Part shown: in pieces, positions 42,373 to 49,409 of the stretch
How the letters are laid out: each line of letters begins with the position of its first letter
How positions within the stretch are numbered: position 1 is the stretch's first letter
DNA from: Oscillospiraceae bacterium
Lineage (GTDB): Bacteria > Bacillota > Clostridia > Oscillospirales > Oscillospiraceae
Length of the DNA: 49,954 bases
Reading direction: 5' to 3'
NCBI GenBank assembly: GCA_022800665.1
Contig: JAAWQS010000178.1
Span: forward strand, 1 to 49,954
The notes under the pieces: model-generated
Database searches by the model: none
Told to the model about the DNA's origin: nothing
What the model saw: only the letters and a program-made list of their open reading frames with translations
Translations under genes and position numbers: made by a program

Positions 42373-43641
42373 ATGGAACACAGATTTAAGCCAACCACCC
42401 ACGGCAGGGCTATCTTGGCCGCCTGTGCCGCCCTAGAGAAACCACTGAAGCTCACCCGTGTATCCGTCGGAAGCGGGATGGTGGACGAGGAAACCAATCT
42501 GGCTGATATGCACGAGCTGATTCACTATATAGCCGAAGGGACCATCGGGGACCGGCGTCACGAGGATGACCGGCTATATCTGAACGTCCAGTATTCCAAT
42601 GACGCCGACCATGCTGATATCAAGACCTTCCAGCTCTCAGAGTTCATCATCTATGCTGAGAACCCGGTTGACGGTAGCGAGCAGGACTTTATCTATGCGA
42701 CGATGGGCGATTACATGCAGAACATCCCCCAATATCGCCCCGGCTTCGCCTATGGCATTTGGGATTTCCCAATTACGGTCATCGTTTCTGATGAGATCAA
42801 TGTGGTCGTTTCCACGCCGTCCGGCCTCGTTCGGTATGATGACTTGATTCAGCTGCTGAACAGCCGTGCCAGCGGCGCGGCCAAGCGGTTGCTGACCATC
42901 CCCGCCGCAGGCTGGGCGGCAGACGCGGATACTGGCGGGACGTACCCTTTGCATCTGGACATCGCCAGCGCGGAGATCACGGAGGACATGATCCCCATGG
43001 CGGCCATCCTGCCCCAGAGCCTGCCCACCGCTATAGCCTGCGGCCTTTGCCCGGCCTGCCGGACACTGCCGGGACTGCTGCGGTTCTATACCAAGAGAGC
43101 GCCGGCGTCTGACATCCAGATCAGCCTTGCGCTGCTGGACACCGTGCCGCAGGGCAGCAATCTTGCCAGCTCGGCGGCGGCGGGACGGCTGGATATCGAA
43201 ATCCCGGCAGAGGGCTGGACGGACAGCGGAGAAGGGACGTATCCCTACAGCACTGAGATTCGCCATGGACGCATTGACGCCAGCATGATTCCGCTGCTTA
43301 CTATCCTGCCGGAATTCCTGGGGACCGCCGTATCCAGCGGTATGTCCCCCATTGCCGAGACCCTGCCCGGTGCGCTCCGGGTATACGCCAGAGAGATGCC
43401 GGAAGCTCCCATCCGGGCCAGCCTTGCGCTGCTGAACGTGGCATCGGGCATTACCGGTTCTATCAAACCGGACACAGGCTATGTCCTTCCCACAGCCACC
43501 GAGTACGTCCTGGGCGGCGTGAAGGTCCAGCGCGGTTCCGGCCTGACGGTGGACGAGGAGGGCAACCTGTCCGTGGACGCGGCGAATGCCGACGATGCAG
43601 CAAATCTTTTCGGTTCTAACGCTGGAAACAGTGTGGAATAA
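42373..43641 (+). CDS. Tail fibre protein with internal duplication
   Basis: A 422-residue protein. The N-terminal part (PTTHGRAILAACAALEKPLKLTRVSVGSGMVDEETNLADMHELI) is the DUF3751-type collar/fibre domain that anchors fibres to the baseplate. From about residue 174 two related copies of about 90 residues follow: LTIPAAGWAADADTGGTYPL..., and IEIPAEGWTDSGEGTYPY..., each ending SLALLD/N. The C-terminus (YVLPTATEYVLGGVKVQRGSGLTVDEEGNLSVDAA) is a common fibre motif. Confidence 0.87.
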   Translation: MEHRFKPTTHGRAILAACAALEKPLKLTRVSVGSGMVDEETNLADMHELIHYIAEGTIGDRRHEDDRLYLNVQYSNDADHADIKTFQLSEFIIYAENPVDGSEQDFIYATMGDYMQNIPQYRPGFAYGIWDFPITVIVSDEINVVVSTPSGLVRYDDLIQLLNSRASGAAKRLLTIPAAGWAADADTGGTYPLHLDIASAEITEDMIPMAAILPQSLPTAIACGLCPACRTLPGLLRFYTKRAPASDIQISLALLDTVPQGSNLASSAAAGRLDIEIPAEGWTDSGEGTYPYSTEIRHGRIDASMIPLLTILPEFLGTAVSSGMSPIAETLPGALRVYAREMPEAPIRASLALLNVASGITGSIKPDTGYVLPTATEYVLGGVKVQRGSGLTVDEEGNLSVDAANADDAANLFGSNAGNSVE

Positions 43642-43668
43642 AAATTTTATGAAATGAGGTACATCACA

Positions 43669-43863
43669 GTGGAAGAAAAGAAAGTCGTAACCCTGGAGGC
43701 ACTGAAAACGGCGGTGGACAAGATTAAGGAGGACTTCCCCACCAAGACCGCCGTCACCGAACAGATCAGCAATGCCGCCTTGGGCGAGAGCATTATCTAC
43801 GCCACCAGCGAGGATGTCCTGGAACTGTTCCAGGATACCGCTGCGCCTGAGCAGAGCGCGTAA
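43669..43863 (+). CDS. Small tail-region protein (64 aa)
   Basis: A helical protein (VVTLEALKTAVDKIKEDFPTKTAVTEQI). GTG at 43669 is preferred since GAGGT lies 8 bases upstream; an ATG at 43654 has no ribosome site. It lies between fibre genes; the function is unknown. Confidence 0.6.
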   Translation: MEEKKVVTLEALKTAVDKIKEDFPTKTAVTEQISNAALGESIIYATSEDVLELFQDTAAPEQSA

Positions 43864-43892
43864 CCGCCCAAACAAAATGGAGGAAAATCATC

Positions 43893-44315
43893 ATGCCTGA
43901 CAACAAAATCAAGAATGTATCCCTGGGGAATCTGTCCACCTTCGCCGCGCAGATGAAGGACAAGTATGCCAAGAAGACGGATATCCCCACCGCTGTGTCC
44001 GCTCTGACCAACGATGCCAAGTATCAGACCGAGGAGCAGGTTGCCGCCACCGTGGCCGCCGCTGATCACCTGGCCCGCAAGAAAGTTGCATCCCTGGAGG
44101 CCATTGATCCCGCCGCTGAGGGCGCGGAGAAGTACATCTACATGGTCCCCAAGACCGGCTCCGATGAGGATGACCAGTATGACGAGTACATGGTTCTGGA
44201 CGGCGCTGTGGAGCATGTGGGCAACACAAAGGTGGACCTGTCCGGCTATGTCAGGGCCGAGGACTTCGAGGAAATTGCCGAGGCGGAGATCATTGCGCTG
44301 TTCGCGGAGGAGTAA
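43893..44315 (+). CDS. Tail-associated structural protein (140 aa)
   Basis: Contains FAAQMKDKYAKKTDIPTAVSALTNDAKYQTEEQVAATVAAADHLARKK followed by YIYMVPKTGSDEDDQYDEYMVLDGAVEHVGNTKVDLSGYV, a frequent Firmicutes phage fibre-associated pattern. It is probably a minor structural or fibre accessory protein. Confidence 0.72.
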   Translation: MPDNKIKNVSLGNLSTFAAQMKDKYAKKTDIPTAVSALTNDAKYQTEEQVAATVAAADHLARKKVASLEAIDPAAEGAEKYIYMVPKTGSDEDDQYDEYMVLDGAVEHVGNTKVDLSGYVRAEDFEEIAEAEIIALFAEE

Positions 44316-44336
44316 GAGAAGGGAGGGCAAGGCCCT

Positions 44337-44693
44337 ATGACGCAATGGAAAATCTTTGGCGGACAGGCGTGGGCCGCCCTGAAATCTTCCCTGAAATCAC
44401 TGAAGGAGGCGGTGGACGGCAACACGTCCGCCGTCTCTGGTTTAGGGATGGAGCTGGCGGAGATGGCGGAAACGACCGCCGCCGCCTTGAACGGGAAGCA
44501 GGACAAGCTGACCCCTGGCCCCGGTATTGCCATAAACGGCAGCGTCATTTCTGTTTCCGGCAGCGGCAAGGCATTCTCTGTCGGAGACACCGCACCTGAA
44601 AACACCAATCTGCTGTGGATTGACACAGGTGCAGGCGTGACAAAATACTACACCGGCTCGGCTTGGGAGGCACTGCCGGTGGCATGGGGGTGA
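44337..44693 (+). CDS. Minor tail structural protein A (118 aa)
   Basis: The N-terminus is helical (WAALKSSLKSLKEAVDGNTSAVSGLGMEL); the C-terminal GDTAPENTNLLWIDTGAGVTKYYTGSAWEALPVAW is the short carbohydrate-module-like motif common in phage tail proteins. The same motif ends the next gene, indicating duplication. Confidence 0.72.
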   Translation: MTQWKIFGGQAWAALKSSLKSLKEAVDGNTSAVSGLGMELAEMAETTAAALNGKQDKLTPGPGIAINGSVISVSGSGKAFSVGDTAPENTNLLWIDTGAGVTKYYTGSAWEALPVAWG

Positions 44694-44729
44694 GTCTATG
44701 GAAATACAGCATGAAGGGAGCGGCAAATC

Positions 44730-45113
44730 ATGGCATATGGATCTGTAAATGTGGGCGGCGGTGGCGGCGGCTTTTCTCAGGACAGCCTGGAAGAAATCAG
44801 AAACGCTGTCACAGCTGTGGACGCATCGGCAAAGGAAGCCAAAGCCACGGCGGACACCGCGCTGGCAGCCGCCAACGGCGCGAAGAACGCCGCCGATACC
44901 GCACTGACCACCGCCAACGCCCTGAAAGAAATTTTCGAACAGTCGGGCGGCGGCGAAACAGGGGGCGAAGTCACCCTGGCGTATTACCACATTGGGACGG
45001 AGCCGCCTGAGAACACCAAGCTGCTGTGGATAGATACCACAGAGGACGGGACCGGCGGGCTGAAATATCACACTGGCTCGGCCTGGGCGGCTGTACCGGT
45101 GGCATGGGGGTAA
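44730..45113 (+). CDS. Minor tail structural protein B (127 aa)
   Basis: Gly-rich start (VNVGGGGGGFSQDSLEEI), an Ala-rich helix (AKEAKATADTALAAANGAKNAADTALTTANALKEIF, trimeric coiled-coil-like), and GTEPPENTKLLWIDT...KYHTGSAWAAVPVAWG, which matches the end of the preceding gene. Confidence 0.72.
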   Translation: MAYGSVNVGGGGGGFSQDSLEEIRNAVTAVDASAKEAKATADTALAAANGAKNAADTALTTANALKEIFEQSGGGETGGEVTLAYYHIGTEPPENTKLLWIDTTEDGTGGLKYHTGSAWAAVPVAWG

Positions 45114-45119
45114 TTGAGG

Positions 45120-46199
45120 ATGAAACAAATTATTGCACAAGATGCAAACGGCTGGTACACCCGGCTGAATGCGGTCCTGCTCAAACACGGGCTGACCGCT
45201 GTCCCTGTGCCGGACATTACTGGTCCGGCCAAGGCGGAGCAGGTTGCGCCGCTGACGGACAAGCTGGAGAGCATGAAGACAGACACCTACTACAAGCTGG
45301 CCTCCTATTCTGACTGGGGCAGCGTAGTCAAGGGTGCTCTGATGAAGGAGCTGACACCCACCGGCATAGAGGCCACGATTACCAGCGTGGAGGCGACAAT
45401 CGTCTGCCGGAATACGGCATCCAACGCCCACGGCGCGTGTACGTATGGAACTAACTCTAACAGCTCCAACAGCAACGGCACCCGGAGCTACGGCACCAAC
45501 AGCAACGGGAACAATTCCAATGGGACGTGCAGTCATGGCTCCAAGTCATACGGCGCTAACGATAACGGAACCTGTTCCAAAGGCTCCAAGTCTTACGGTA
45601 CTAACAGCGACGGGACGTGCTCCAAAGGCTCCAAGGCCAACGGTACCAACAGCGACGGAACACGTAGTTACGGTACCCATTCGCAAGGTAGTTTAAGCAA
45701 CAGCACCAAACTTAATGGCGTCAAGTCCGACGGCTACAACTCCGACGTTACCAACTCTAACGGCATCTGCACGAAAGGCAGTTACACTCACAGCAATAAC
45801 AGTCTTGGTACCATGACCAACGGAACCAAGTCCAACAACCCCAACGTTAACGGCACTAACTCCGACAGTACCAACAGTCTAGGCTACAAGGCCAACGGCA
45901 TCTGTTCCAATATCGCCAACAGCCAAGGCACAAAAACTAACGGAACCAACTCCGATGGTACCAACAGCCAAGGTACTAAGACTAACGGCGCTAACTCCGA
46001 CGGCAATAACAGCCAGGGGACTAAGACCAATGGCGCTAACTCCGATGGCGTCAACAGCCAAGGCACCAGGTCCTACGGTTCCGACAGCTACGGCAAGTAC
46101 AGCAATGGTATCAGATCCAATGGCGTCAAGAACAACGGCAATAATACCGACGGAAACGAAATTGACACGGGCAATTCCAACAGCACAAAGACGAATTAG
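45120..46199 (+). CDS. Pentapeptide-repeat (G-x-x-S-x) fibre-like protein
   Basis: A 359-residue protein. The N-terminal 105 residues start MKQIIAQDANGWYTRLNAVL and include TDTYYKLASYSDWGSVVKGALM, a probable attachment domain. From about 105 to the end there are about 50 five-residue repeats, mostly G-[T/S/A/N]-[N/K/R/C]-[S/T]-x, for example GTNSD, GTKTN, GANSD. Late in the protein three-unit blocks (GTNSD GTNSQ GTKTN) recur. The pattern is unlike the A-D/N-L-x-x pentapeptide of Qnr-type proteins, since no hydrophobic core position exists. Six Cys occur mainly at the third position. Two radical SAM genes follow 9 bases later, so the repeat may be their substrate. Confidence 0.75.
   Translation: MKQIIAQDANGWYTRLNAVLLKHGLTAVPVPDITGPAKAEQVAPLTDKLESMKTDTYYKLASYSDWGSVVKGALMKELTPTGIEATITSVEATIVCRNTASNAHGACTYGTNSNSSNSNGTRSYGTNSNGNNSNGTCSHGSKSYGANDNGTCSKGSKSYGTNSDGTCSKGSKANGTNSDGTRSYGTHSQGSLSNSTKLNGVKSDGYNSDVTNSNGICTKGSYTHSNNSLGTMTNGTKSNNPNVNGTNSDSTNSLGYKANGICSNIANSQGTKTNGTNSDGTNSQGTKTNGANSDGNNSQGTKTNGANSDGVNSQGTRSYGSDSYGKYSNGIRSNGVKNNGNNTDGNEIDTGNSNSTKTN
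45430..46195 (+). repeat. 15-bp coding repeats of the fibre-like gene
   Basis: About 50 degenerate 15-base units, e.g. GGNACCAACTCCGAC-like, encoding the pentapeptides. In the last third a 45-base superunit is repeated with few changes (around 45940-46080), indicating recent expansion. Confidence 0.85.
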
Positions 46200-46208
46200 G
46201 AGGGCCAG

Positions 46209-47552
46209 ATGGAACGTACAACTGCGGTTTTATACTCTACGGCAGTGTGCAACCTTAACTGCACCTACTGCTATATCAACAAGAATAAGGGCTTGAAGGC
46301 CATTGACGATGTGCTGGCGGAGAGCTTCGCGGACCCGGACTACTACTTCGATTTCATCCGGGACTACTTCCCCCGCCGGGGCGACCTTCAGGAACTGGAG
46401 GTGTGGGGTGCGGAGACCTTCCTGCACATGGAGCGGGTCTTCCCTACGCTCCACAAGCTCATCGGGTTCTATCCCTTTTTCCGGCATTTCTTCGCCTCCA
46501 CCAACTTCTCCTATCCCGACTGGACTGACAAGGTGTTCGACCTGCTGCGCCAGTTTTCTGGCTATGCCCCCCGCCGGTTTGACGTACACCTCCAGCTGTC
46601 CCTGGACGGGCCGGAGCATATCACCGACCAGACGCGGGGTCGGGGCGTGACACAGCTTTGTCTGCAAAATTATGACCGGCTGCTGGAGCGGGCTGACGAA
46701 ATTCCGGAGAACGTATCCCTGTTCCTGGCCTTCAAGCCCACGCTGTCCATCGACACCATGTACCAGTTGGACACCAAAGATAAAATCATCGAATACTATC
46801 GGTTTTTCGAGGATTTGATTCAAAAGGTGGTGGACCTGGACCGATGCAATCTGAGCGTGAACTATCCCGTACCCAATGTGGGTGTGCCGGTCCCTGCTGG
46901 GAAAGCGGATGGCGAGTATTTCGCCCGGCTGGTGCAGGACTGCCGGGCGATTGAGAGGGAAAATCCCTTCCGATTCTACCGGGAGATTACCCCGTTTTCT
47001 ACCAACGTGCGGCCAAAGGGTGAGGATACCTACAACTACCCCTGCTTCAACTGCGGGACTGGCAGCAAAAATGTCGGCTTCCTGCCCAACCGGCTCATTT
47101 CCTCCTGCCACAACGGCTTCGTGGACGTGCTGGAGGACTACGAGAAATACTTCCAGGCGAACCCGGATTCCAGTATCGACGCCAAACTGTTCCAGCCCAC
47201 CCACAATAAATTCACCCACACGGAGGCGGAATACGCCGCCTATGAGAAGCAGATCAGCCACTACAACACAGCTGGTTCCCTGTGCCGCATGGGCTGTCTG
47301 GCCGGATTCATCCGCACCCTGGCGCTCGCCGGGGAGATTGATGAGAAGTATGCCACAGAAGAGGGCGCGTTCCGGGGCGCGGAGCTGTACCAGTCCTGTA
47401 CCTGCAACTGTATGCGGGACAATTACATGGTCACCGGCTCCACCAGTTTGCAGCCGGAGGGCATGATAAAACTGCTGCTCAACGGCGCGGTAGATCACAT
47501 CATACCGGATTGCCGGAAGGACGGAGAGGAGGGAGAAAATGTCTGTTCTTGA
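46209..47552 (+). CDS. Radical SAM enzyme 1 with C-terminal Cys-rich (SPASM-type) region
   Basis: A 447-residue enzyme. CNLNCTYC (Cys14, Cys18, Cys21) is the CxxxCxxC site that ligates the SAM-binding 4Fe-4S cluster; WGAET corresponds to the GGE motif and HLQLSLDGPEHIT to the next strand. The C-terminal third has many Cys (YPCFNCGTGSKN, LISSCHNG, LCRMGCLAG, CTCNCMRDN) that could bind one or two auxiliary clusters as in SPASM/twitch peptide maturases. AGGAGGG precedes ATG; the gene overlaps radical SAM 2 by 14 bases. The substrate is unknown; the repeat protein just upstream is the best candidate. Confidence 0.87.
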   Translation: MERTTAVLYSTAVCNLNCTYCYINKNKGLKAIDDVLAESFADPDYYFDFIRDYFPRRGDLQELEVWGAETFLHMERVFPTLHKLIGFYPFFRHFFASTNFSYPDWTDKVFDLLRQFSGYAPRRFDVHLQLSLDGPEHITDQTRGRGVTQLCLQNYDRLLERADEIPENVSLFLAFKPTLSIDTMYQLDTKDKIIEYYRFFEDLIQKVVDLDRCNLSVNYPVPNVGVPVPAGKADGEYFARLVQDCRAIERENPFRFYREITPFSTNVRPKGEDTYNYPCFNCGTGSKNVGFLPNRLISSCHNGFVDVLEDYEKYFQANPDSSIDAKLFQPTHNKFTHTEAEYAAYEKQISHYNTAGSLCRMGCLAGFIRTLALAGEIDEKYATEEGAFRGAELYQSCTCNCMRDNYMVTGSTSLQPEGMIKLLLNGAVDHIIPDCRKDGEEGENVCS

Positions 47553-48900
47553 GACCATCCTGGAAAAACGGTTCTTTACCCCCTGGCGAGAGGGAGAGAC
47601 CGGCGAACCAGCCAGCCTGTGGCCTGATGCGAACCTGGAATTGTACGTCACCGCCGCCTGTAACCAGAACTGTGAATACTGCTACCTGGTGCGGCGCGAG
47701 GAACTGTACCCACGGGATGCCATGAAGCCGGAGAACATCAAAAGCAATCTGCGGGTGTTCCTGGACTGGTGTCTGGAGCAGGGCTTTTCCTTTAACCAGG
47801 TGGATTTTTTCAGCGGCGAAATCTGGCACGGGTCCTTTGGCTGGGACGTGCTGGACATTCTTCTGACGTACATCCGGCGGGGCCTTCGGGTCAAAACTGT
47901 CATGATTCCCACCAACGCCAGCTTTGTCCTGTCCGACCGGGCGGTGACGGAGATTGCCAACCGCATCCAGGATTACGACAACGCCGGGTGCCGCCTACAG
48001 TTTTCCGGCTCCATCGACGGCGCTCTTTCCGACGGGATCACACGCCGGGGCAACGACGATAATCTGACGGAGAAGAAGAACGGGGATGATTTCTACGACC
48101 GGTTCTTCTCCTTCTGGCGGCGGTTCGGTTTCCTGTTCCACCCGATGGTGTCGGCGGAAAACGTGAAGTATTGGAAGGAAAATTTCGACTGGTGGGACAA
48201 GCAGTGCCGGGAATACGGCTATGACGCATTCCGGGACGTGATGATGCTGGAGGTCCGCAACGACGGCTGGACGGAGGAGAATATCCGGGATTACACGGCC
48301 TTCTTGGATTATCTGATCGACAAGATGCTGGCCGAACGCTGCGGCGGAGACGTGGAAAAGCTGGCCAACTACCTGTTCCTGACAGACATCTTCAACCCCG
48401 GCGGCAGCGGGTACGTCAACTTCGGCATGACTGCGGCGGATGCGTTCCAGGGCTGCACGGTCAGCGATATGCTCACTGTCCGGCTGGGCGACTTGGCGAT
48501 CCCGCCCTGCCACCGCACGGCCTACGACGAGCTGTTGTACGGGCGGTTCCAGGTGGAGGACGGAAAGATTGTGGGCATTGAGGAGCACAACCCCCAGATG
48601 GCGTCCAGGATTCTCTTTCAGGACAGCATCCTCTGTTCCCCTGGATGTGATTGCTGTCCCTACAGTTATTTCTGTCTGCGGGGCTGCTATGGCTCCCAGA
48701 AGGAGACGGAAAACGACCCCTTCATGCCCATAGAGAGTGTGTGCAGGTTGTTCAGGGGAAAGATCGACTTCCTCATTGACAAGTACGAGGCCCTGGGCGT
48801 GTGGGATATCCTGAAAAAACTGCCCCCCGCCAACGCCCGGTATGAGAATGTTCAGGAAACGTTGCGGGCCGTGGAGAAGATCAAGGAGGCGCGGACATGA
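47539..48900 (+). CDS. Radical SAM/SPASM enzyme 2
   Basis: A 453-residue enzyme with the radical SAM motif CNQNCEYCYL (Cys41, Cys45, Cys48), FFSGEIWHG corresponding to the GGE region, and a TIM-barrel-like middle (VKTVMIPTNASFV, LQFSGSIDGAL). The C-terminal SPASM-type pattern CHRTAYDELLYGRF, CSPGCDCCPYSYFCLRGCYG matches auxiliary cluster binding in peptide-modifying enzymes. It is only distantly like enzyme 1, suggesting two different reactions or a heteromer. The stop overlaps the next start (ATGA). Confidence 0.9.
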   Translation: MSVLETILEKRFFTPWREGETGEPASLWPDANLELYVTAACNQNCEYCYLVRREELYPRDAMKPENIKSNLRVFLDWCLEQGFSFNQVDFFSGEIWHGSFGWDVLDILLTYIRRGLRVKTVMIPTNASFVLSDRAVTEIANRIQDYDNAGCRLQFSGSIDGALSDGITRRGNDDNLTEKKNGDDFYDRFFSFWRRFGFLFHPMVSAENVKYWKENFDWWDKQCREYGYDAFRDVMMLEVRNDGWTEENIRDYTAFLDYLIDKMLAERCGGDVEKLANYLFLTDIFNPGGSGYVNFGMTAADAFQGCTVSDMLTVRLGDLAIPPCHRTAYDELLYGRFQVEDGKIVGIEEHNPQMASRILFQDSILCSPGCDCCPYSYFCLRGCYGSQKETENDPFMPIESVCRLFRGKIDFLIDKYEALGVWDILKKLPPANARYENVQETLRAVEKIKEART

Positions 48901-49409
48901 ACGAACTGATTTTTGAGCTGTTCCAAACCGTATCCGACAAGCCGGAGCTGGACGAGGCAAGGCGGCAACGGGTCTTTAGCTGGCTGTCTGCCCTGCTGAG
49001 CATCCCGTATCTGGACCCGGCGGAAAAGAAGAACGCTCTGATCCTGCTGGACTTCCTGGAGGGGCTGCCCGGCGGCGCAGTGTTCGCGCCACTCTACCGG
49101 GCTGCCCGGACCAAGCTGAGCTTTGAGATGCCGGAGACCTGGACAATGGATTGGCCGGAGAATTATCAGGTCAGCGTGGACGGTGAGAACCTCACCCTGG
49201 AGGACCTGCGCCGCCGGGGAATCCACCATGTGGACTTCCGCCTGACCAAGCCCATCCGAGGTAGCATTGAGTACACTGTGACACGCCGCCTCCACGCAGA
49301 CGGCACGGTGGAGATCATCCCGGACTATCAAGTGTTCAGCGCCCCACCCATAGGCGAGCGGCACATGTTCCACGTCTACGGCGAAAAGGCCGTAGGCAGC
49401 AGAGGCTAA
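48897..49409 (+). CDS. Unknown third member of the radical SAM operon (170 aa)
   Basis: Not recognized. The N-terminal half is helical (LIFELFQTVSDKPELDEARRQRVFSWLSALLSIPYLDPAEKKNALILLDFLEGLPGGAVF); the C-terminal half is beta-rich (YQVSVDGENLTLEDLRRRGIHHVDFRLTKPIRGSIEYTVTRRLHADGTVEIIPDYQVF). The 4-base overlap with the radical SAM gene suggests a linked role, such as substrate recognition, a chaperone or a structural partner. Confidence 0.75.
   Translation: MNELIFELFQTVSDKPELDEARRQRVFSWLSALLSIPYLDPAEKKNALILLDFLEGLPGGAVFAPLYRAARTKLSFEMPETWTMDWPENYQVSVDGENLTLEDLRRRGIHHVDFRLTKPIRGSIEYTVTRRLHADGTVEIIPDYQVFSAPPIGERHMFHVYGEKAVGSRG

Follow-up and report, generated by a model that had tools for sequence, protein, structure and literature searches.

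A phage gene cassette with a tail-associated repeat protein and two radical SAM enzymes: a probable RiPP-like maturation system

We analysed 49,954 nucleotides of DNA from an Oscillospiraceae bacterium (positions 1 to 49,954 of contig JAAWQS010000178.1, assembly GCA_022800665.1; hereafter the window) and describe a phage gene cassette consisting of a repeat protein gene (REP), two radical S-adenosylmethionine (SAM) enzyme genes (rS1 and rS2) and a gene for a 170-residue protein (U170). With this cassette the phage probably encodes a system in which two enzymes mature a tail-associated repeat protein, similar to the systems that mature ribosomally synthesized and post-translationally modified peptides (RiPPs). 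The genes lie in this order, the repeats keep a single register, the enzyme motifs are intact, and in related loci the enzymes co-occur with repeat proteins of matching period. Since very distant phages keep the trio of REP, rS1 and rS2, phages probably rework a tail protein chemically. The initial annotation of the stretch had proposed that the phage modifies its own fibre. The joint travel of leader-repeat proteins and the enzyme pair across very divergent phages bears this out in part; the points beyond co-travel (modification, location in the virion, and the repeats rather than a leader cysteine as the target) are what we infer.

REP occupies 45120-46199 and encodes 359 residues from the ATG at 45120; the mechanically called open reading frame (ORF) begins at a TTG at 45114. 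Behind a leader-like domain, residues 97-359 form 52 units of five residues (pentads) in one register, with G at position 1 in 42 of them, S or T at position 4 in 44, and N, D, Y or Q at position 5 in 44. The strict motif G-x-x-[ST]-x occurs 37 times, compared with a mean of 13.3 and a maximum of 24 in 1000 residue shuffles. The count of about 50 units given in the initial annotation is thus right for the pentads and too high for the strict motif. Autocorrelation gave z scores of 10.9 at lag 5 and 17.0 at lag 15. The cysteines of the array occupy pentad position 3 throughout, in REP (6/6) as well as in the homologues from L002 (7/7), L003 (10/10) and L010 (9/9; L numbers denote loci). In its relatives the leader and much of the C-terminus are kept, and the number and interior of the repeats vary. 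No Pfam, NCBIfam or PHROG entry matched REP up to E 0.1, and an AlphaFold2 model from a five-row alignment gave no fold (mean predicted local distance difference test, pLDDT, 30.5) that would bear on the beta-helix suggested in the initial annotation.

Homologues of rS1 and rS2 were found down to about 25% identity. A scan with an rS1 alignment reached L016-L019 at 24-36% identity, with rS2 nearby and small hydrophilic proteins beside the pair, and a scan with an rS2 alignment gave 35 viral loci. Composition and gene order were counted in 38 loci, namely those of the rS2 scan (one contig being read as L015 instead of L053) together with L010, L011 and L016; this set was chosen via the enzymes and near-duplicate contigs were kept in it. 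rS1 was called in 36 of the 38, the exceptions being L036, of which only 600 bases precede rS2, and L014, which has rS1 although ORF picking dropped it. It lies directly 5' of rS2 in 34 of the 36 loci with both genes called, at gaps of -182 to +2 between ORFs taken from their first start codon, a choice from which the large negative values arise. Repeat proteins sit between the two enzymes in L033 and L038.

A leader-plus-repeat partner was present in 35 of the 38 loci. Composition identified 28 of these, and seven that the composition filter had missed were added by eye (L027/L018, L048, L050, L051, L052, L001 and L059). The three loci without a partner are L011, where it is cut, L028, whose contig begins within rS1, and L047, which has none. 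The initial annotation had said that frequent finds of the enzyme pair without a repeat protein would speak against its proposal; such finds were not frequent here, clear absence being confined to L047. ORFs of low hydrophobicity (at least 80 residues, with at most 12% ILMFWRP in the second half) made up 44 of the 339 ORFs within 3.5 kb of the enzymes and none of the 290 farther off, and all 44 were on the enzymes' strand. We also compared the genes preceding the partners with PHROGs (n=5): those of L030, L018 and L015 matched tail or tail-fibre families, that of L054 a virion structural family, and that of L035 only a family of unknown function.

Because the loci had been chosen by the enzymes, we added a search with the leader only. 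Its DNA pattern occurred on seven contigs, five of which carried both enzymes (four already known and L068, which was new); another, L070/L106, ends 19 bases past the second partner, and in the seventh, L071/L105, neither rS1 nor rS2 had a match. The bare NGTxS repeat was rejected as a marker. A three-unit DNA pattern for it occurred in 12 viral stretches of 1.3-14 kb each (two of them alike), and rS1 or rS2 was present in none; the tracts had 3-4 units where the frame was seen (L080, L083, L085, L086, L087 and L088), and the exact pattern matched no known REP locus.

A tree of rS2 with 35 rows separated clade A (11 members, including the window) from clade B (24 members) with support 100/99; L031, L042, L056 and L036, which were treated as near-duplicates because their coordinates and scores matched, were excluded along with shorter sequences. 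We then scored periods 3, 4, 5 and 7 in 49 partners, leaving out the same four loci and L011 with its broken REP, and taking the L001 REP sequence from alignment A4. Among clade A partners, 8/10 had period 5 (L016 gave 3 and L051 nothing clear). Among those of clade B, 37/39 had period 4 (L052 gave 3 and one L041 partner 7), with tetrads of approximately [DN]-[SAT]-[TSG]-[YVD] that were sharper than a shuffled control. These sequences provide consistent evidence that the repeat period tracks the rS2 clade. A cysteine marks the leader end in each of the nine clade A sequences aligned, displaced by a few residues in L051, and in the majority of those from clade B. A comparison of the two leader profiles (E 2.4e-4, probability 43%) is only suggestive of a relationship between them.

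The CxxxCxxC core motif was found in 31/31 aligned rS1 and 34/34 aligned rS2 homologues, the near-duplicates named above and shorter sequences again being left out. Outside the core, the three cysteines of rS1 listed in Table 1 were kept in 31/31 sequences and His 301 in 30/31, and the seven further cysteines of rS2 were all kept in 34/34. Their spacing corresponds to the seven-cysteine SPASM pattern with CX2CX5CX3C. As only three invariant cysteines lie outside its core motif, rS1 appears to be twitch-like at most. Of the two enzymes to which the initial annotation ascribed C-terminal cysteine clusters, rS2 thus has the seven-cysteine pattern and rS1 lacks it.

Both enzymes matched the radical SAM family PF04055 below its gathering score of 29.5 bits (rS1: E 3e-4, 21.5 bits; rS2: E 0.0092, 16.6 bits) and the phage radical SAM family phrog_1802, of category 'other' (E 1.5e-17 and 4.5e-12, respectively). 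Their leading NCBIfam matches were twitch rSAM (28.7 of 170 bits for rS1), PapB (28.7 of 340 bits for rS2), QhpD, SCIFF and anaerobic sulfatase maturase; viperin, MoaA and CofG models were also among the matches, and all were below cut-off. The same held, among the matches listed, for eight other enzymes. The SPASM model TIGR04085 (cut-off 27 bits) was not reached by rS2 of the window (14.5), L018 (22.5) or L030 (19.8). Among sequences of solved structures, neither the rS1 nor the rS2 profile had a match up to E 0.1. As judged by these profiles, no curated family claims rS1 or rS2.

In the maturation system that we propose, REP would be made as an N-terminal leader-like domain followed by a hydrophilic, low-complexity array; the leader would serve as a docking or assembly part and tether REP either to the enzymes or to the baseplate. 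Before virion assembly or in its course, rS1, with at most one extra cluster, and rS2, with the full SPASM cysteine set, would act together along the array, probably with one event for each repeat or for every few repeats. Such action would leave a fibre or adhesin close to the baseplate that is chemically altered, stiffer or resistant to proteases. The precursors of RiPP radical SAM enzymes are usually encoded by neighbouring genes, and REP and its counterparts in other loci share the trait of a leader-plus-core precursor beside a putative maturase. Clade B arrays have few or no cysteines, so that thioethers to repeat cysteines would not be the general product; Cα epimerization or C-C or C-O cross-links fit better as the general chemistry. 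A cysteine at every fifth position, the trait of CefAB, was not found in REP, where 6 of the 52 pentads contain one, and the CefB model scored 12.8 of 600 bits.

Several observations weigh against this proposal. In L047 the pair and a third protein are present with no partner in the frames examined, and no leader match was found in its 37,558-base record. Conversely, L071/L105 encodes leader-repeat proteins with no recognized rS1 or rS2 in 16,181 bases. REP of L011 appears to have been cut by an insertion while the enzymes stayed open. As no relationship between U170 and the clade B third protein could be detected, the cassette is not fixed as four genes. The period evidence is consistent but does not represent many independent events, as it reflects mostly one deep split; moreover, partners occur two per locus, the window is nearly identical to L001, some of the scores for period are weak (L050_7308, 1.5; L037_6923, 1.8; L048, 3.0), and the period could follow the fold and not the enzymes. 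Finally, we infer rather than observe that REP is the substrate, that its repeats are the sites, that it is in the virion and that it is modified.

The enzymes might instead serve metabolism, nucleic-acid modification or host physiology and lie near REP only as cargo at the tail-lysis junction. Passages of the Campylobacter phage papers (PMC2853527, PMC3322345) read radical SAM genes as metabolic or nucleic-acid type, and in L046, L048 and L058 more unexplained genes adjoin the pair. Against this stand low-hydrophobicity ORFs that are found near the enzymes and not at a distance, a gene order common to very divergent phages and a repeat period that follows the enzyme clade; the leading family matches, too, are peptide or protein maturases. 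We therefore regard this explanation as unlikely. The neutral reading, in which the repeats are low-complexity sequence and the enzymes remnants, could draw on slippage, which can enlarge such arrays, and on the lack of a fold in the AlphaFold2 model. The retention of core and auxiliary cysteines in every aligned rS1 and rS2 and the 52 pentads without a register slip leave it, in our judgement, almost no probability.

Two further alternatives accept that the enzymes modify a protein. REP could be modified and then released, as a RiPP-like peptide or a bacteriocin-like phage product, and not become part of the virion; RiPP loci are usually laid out in this way, with a leader-plus-core gene beside radical SAM maturases (reviewed in PMC8326336). 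Against this, REP is 359 residues long with a conserved C-terminus and is placed after fibre and baseplate genes, and a leader-repeat protein of L105 (1452-2858) runs on into a Gly_rich_2 domain (PF21722; 57.5 bits, cut-off 24.3), which makes a released product quite improbable. Alternatively, the enzymes could act on the conserved cysteine at the leader end or on another fibre protein, with the repeats as an unmodified spacer. The presence of this cysteine in nine of nine aligned clade A leaders and in most of clade B agrees with such a role, but it is the repeat period that differs between the enzyme clades, and not leader type alone, and we hold this explanation to be very unlikely.

The setting of the cassette is that of a phage tail. 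By PHROG matches the window holds a contractile-tail phage, with genes for terminase, portal, head maturation protease and major head protein, and for sheath, tape measure, baseplate hub and baseplate wedge. The contractile tail module is followed by a tail-fibre gene, small genes and then REP, rS1, rS2 and U170 (Table 1), which agrees with the tail operon of the initial annotation. Its spacing was also right, with a 9-base gap between REP and rS1 and overlaps of 14 bases between rS1 and rS2 and of 4 bases between rS2 and U170. The 118- and 127-residue small proteins have in common a C-terminal segment LLWIDT...TGSAW...PVAWG. Similar segments occur in the gene preceding REP in L015 and L054, and that of L015 matches the minor tail protein family phrog_1446 (E 6.2e-10).

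Table 1. Features of the cassette and its neighbours, in window positions
Feature	Position	Strand	Remarks
Tail-fibre gene (422 aa), same cluster, upstream of REP	42373..43641	+	phrog_27381 tail fiber protein, E 5.6e-25
Four small genes (69, 140, 118, 127 aa)	43654..45113	+	Weak tail-fibre PHROG matches
REP leader-like domain, residues 1-96, last residue Cys96	45120..45407	+	Kept in close relatives; alignment of nine clade A loci
REP repeat region, 52 pentads, mostly G-[TS]-x-[ST]-[NDYQ]	45408..46196	+	All 6 Cys at position 3
rS1, radical SAM, 447 aa, CNLNCTYC	46209..47552	+	CxxxCxxC residues 14-21; invariant Cys 282, 300, 401
rS2, radical SAM/SPASM, 453 aa, CNQNCEYC	47539..48900	+	CxxxCxxC residues 41-48
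SPASM region of rS2	48454..48744	+	Cys 306, 324, 370, 373, 379, 383, 402 (CX2CX5CX3C)
U170, 170 aa, no assigned function	48897..49409	+	4-base overlap with rS2; conserved in L001, L003, L010, L011
p98, 98 aa	49456..49752	+	Comes after U170 in L001, L003, L010, L011

The order REP, rS1, rS2, U170 and p98 was seen in L001, L003 and L010, and L002/L013 stop within rS2. As the fibre gene of the window had no match in L003 at E 1e-3, the cassette occupies different tail contexts. L011 has REP reduced to its last 30 codons, with rS1, rS2 and U170 still open; by eye, DNA with relaxase-like genes stands in place of most of REP, up to about 9890. U170 matched nothing in NCBIfam or PHROG, and in Pfam nothing better than E 0.09. 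Its kinship with the third protein of clade B was considered and found no support (hhalign probability 0.7%; no significant BLAST match, the L016 gene after rS2 being compared). By eye, a holin-like gene comes next after p98 in L003 and L011, and the genes after rS2 in G775 are those of the third protein, of a small coiled-coil protein and of an amidase-like protein. Genes with alike N-termini lie downstream of the pair in L018 (14686-15699), L043 (10897-11883), L046 (10269-11207), L048 (7789-9189) and L058 (10269-11213); they look glycosyltransferase-like, which is a candidate label only.

In named bacterial genomes rS1 had two matches, both in one Oscillospiraceae bacterium. Among 149 host relatives the window rS1 matched its own genome and had five weak partial matches (E 4e-4 to 8e-4), and the rS1 alignment matched only its own genome among 291 of the class. 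The rS2 profile likewise found its own genome only among 199 relatives, and its own and G775 among 398 genomes of the phylum. The REP profile matched, among the 199 relatives, its own genome and six low-complexity sequences with no rS1 or rS2 in the stretches examined. The rS1, rS2 and REP leader of the window, L018 rS1, L019 rS1, L030 rS2 and an L058 leader matched nothing in 50,697 phage records, and a plasmid search with window rS2 gave no match either. The fusion protein of L105 matched phrog_2295, with function not assigned (E 1.9e-56), and among phage records had three weak Lentibacter phage matches over 38 residues only. Just upstream of it a fragment with SPASM-like cysteine spacing was seen by eye; it has no Pfam or PHROG match. 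Open-frame coverage suggested recoding of TAG or TGA in L016, L028, L029, L031, L051, L055, L056 and L059. In L052 (4300-15036) a partner with period-3 HSx repeats is present, and more radical SAM genes follow past the pair, an arrangement reminiscent of Hxs.

Proteins with cysteine arrays, for example repeated CTCDCNY, were seen beside or near other phage radical SAM genes in L020 (9519-9920), L021 (6526-7748), L023 (8762-9907), L024 (11113-11832) and L025 (11302-12126). Of these, L021 also has a match to the leader profile of clade A (E 5e-5). The end segment of the L024 protein is one that we take to be an S74-type fibre chaperone, and 77 phage records contain relatives of the L024 enzyme, with the best scores in Campylobacter phages. 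Campylobacter phages CP220 (L107, 3188-4792) and IBB_35 (L108, 2100-3704) encode a 534-residue hypothetical protein with six C-x-C-x-C-N-Y units and 35 cysteines; its gene adjoins a tail-fibre attachment gene and precedes a radical SAM gene by about 2.2 kb. In IBB_35, for which 38 structural proteins have been reported (PMC3322345), the protein with the CTCDCNY array is AEF56812.1. Separate passages of the CP220 paper mention a 21-bp repeat inside one gene and radical SAM genes (PMC2853527). That gene is probably the cysteine-array gene, although the numbering differs. In a passage of the IBB_35 paper, metabolism or DNA methylation is proposed for the radical SAM genes (PMC3322345). In Cronobacter phage CR5 (L109, 3960-7350), a 69-residue protein, with RCNGSCSW close to its end, is encoded 1.0 and 1.8 kb ahead of two radical SAM genes and is a possible small substrate.

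It seems to us an evenly balanced proposition that many kinds of phage modify their own tail proteins through a dedicated pathway, in which paired radical SAM enzymes would convert leader-tagged, strictly periodic arrays into a non-canonical polymer (with regularly spaced D-residues or cross-links, for example) used as fibre or adhesin; this would cover repeats of 3, 4 or 5 residues and the cysteine arrays (such as CTCDCNY) that adjoin other radical SAM genes. We know of no earlier case of such virion-protein maturation. If true, phages would make chemically non-standard tail proteins, radical SAM genes clustering near phage tail genes would gain a role, receptor-binding proteins might be hidden from sequence-based annotation, and a new source of enzymes working repeatedly along long repeats would become available. 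The proposal can be tested directly, as it specifies a substrate, its enzymes and the expected sites, and isolated phages with a cysteine-array protein exist in CP220 and IBB_35 of Campylobacter.

Radical SAM gene cassettes have been reported in phages, namely Campylobacter phages CP220, CPt10 and IBB_35, pelagimyophages and a T4-like marine genome (PMC2853527, PMC3322345, PMC7029224, PMC5332604), and the relevant passages treat them as metabolic or leave them unexplained. The nearest report found describes, in the section concerned, pelagimyophage radical SAM genes in a variable HRC region (taken here as host-recognition cluster) near tail fibres, and two genomes that differ in the HRC by radical SAM cassettes (PMC7029224). 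In the open-access full-text literature, judged by titles and by passages of the nearest papers (bioRxiv and subscription papers being outside this scope), no report of virion-protein modification by radical SAM enzymes was found, in line with the initial annotation, which knew of no described phage system of this type.

REP resembles pentapeptide-repeat proteins in its period of five residues and in N or D before the central position. The units of that family are A(D/N)LXX with a central L or F; REP has G in place of this residue and no Pfam match up to E 0.1, and comparison with phage pentapeptide-repeat proteins by tblastn gave weak matches (E 0.1-2). The Hxs (His-Xaa-Ser) system consists of a repeat protein (HxsA), two radical SAM enzymes (HxsB and HxsC) and a small protein (HxsD). 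The cassette likewise combines one repeat protein, two radical SAM enzymes and one small protein, and the L052 partner has HSx repeats. Unlike in Hxs, the setting is a phage and REP contains G-[TS]-x-[ST]-[NDYQ] pentads and no His-x-Ser array; the HxsB model scored only 25.5 (rS2) and 11.8 (rS1) of 370 bits, and HxsA, HxsC and HxsD had no match up to E 0.1. HxsB and HxsC are named in an earlier paper (PMC9062424). RiPP maturation systems with a precursor gene beside the maturase, including the proteusin and epipeptide epimerases, are treated in a review (PMC8326336). Like the SPASM maturases of RiPPs and their kin (PapB of ranthipeptides, QhpD, SCIFF and anaerobic sulfatase maturase), the cassette combines C-terminal Fe-S cysteines with an adjacent leader-plus-core gene. 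It differs from them in that its enzymes score under the family cut-offs and are paired, and in that the putative substrate is a repeat protein of about 100-560 residues encoded in a phage tail cluster.

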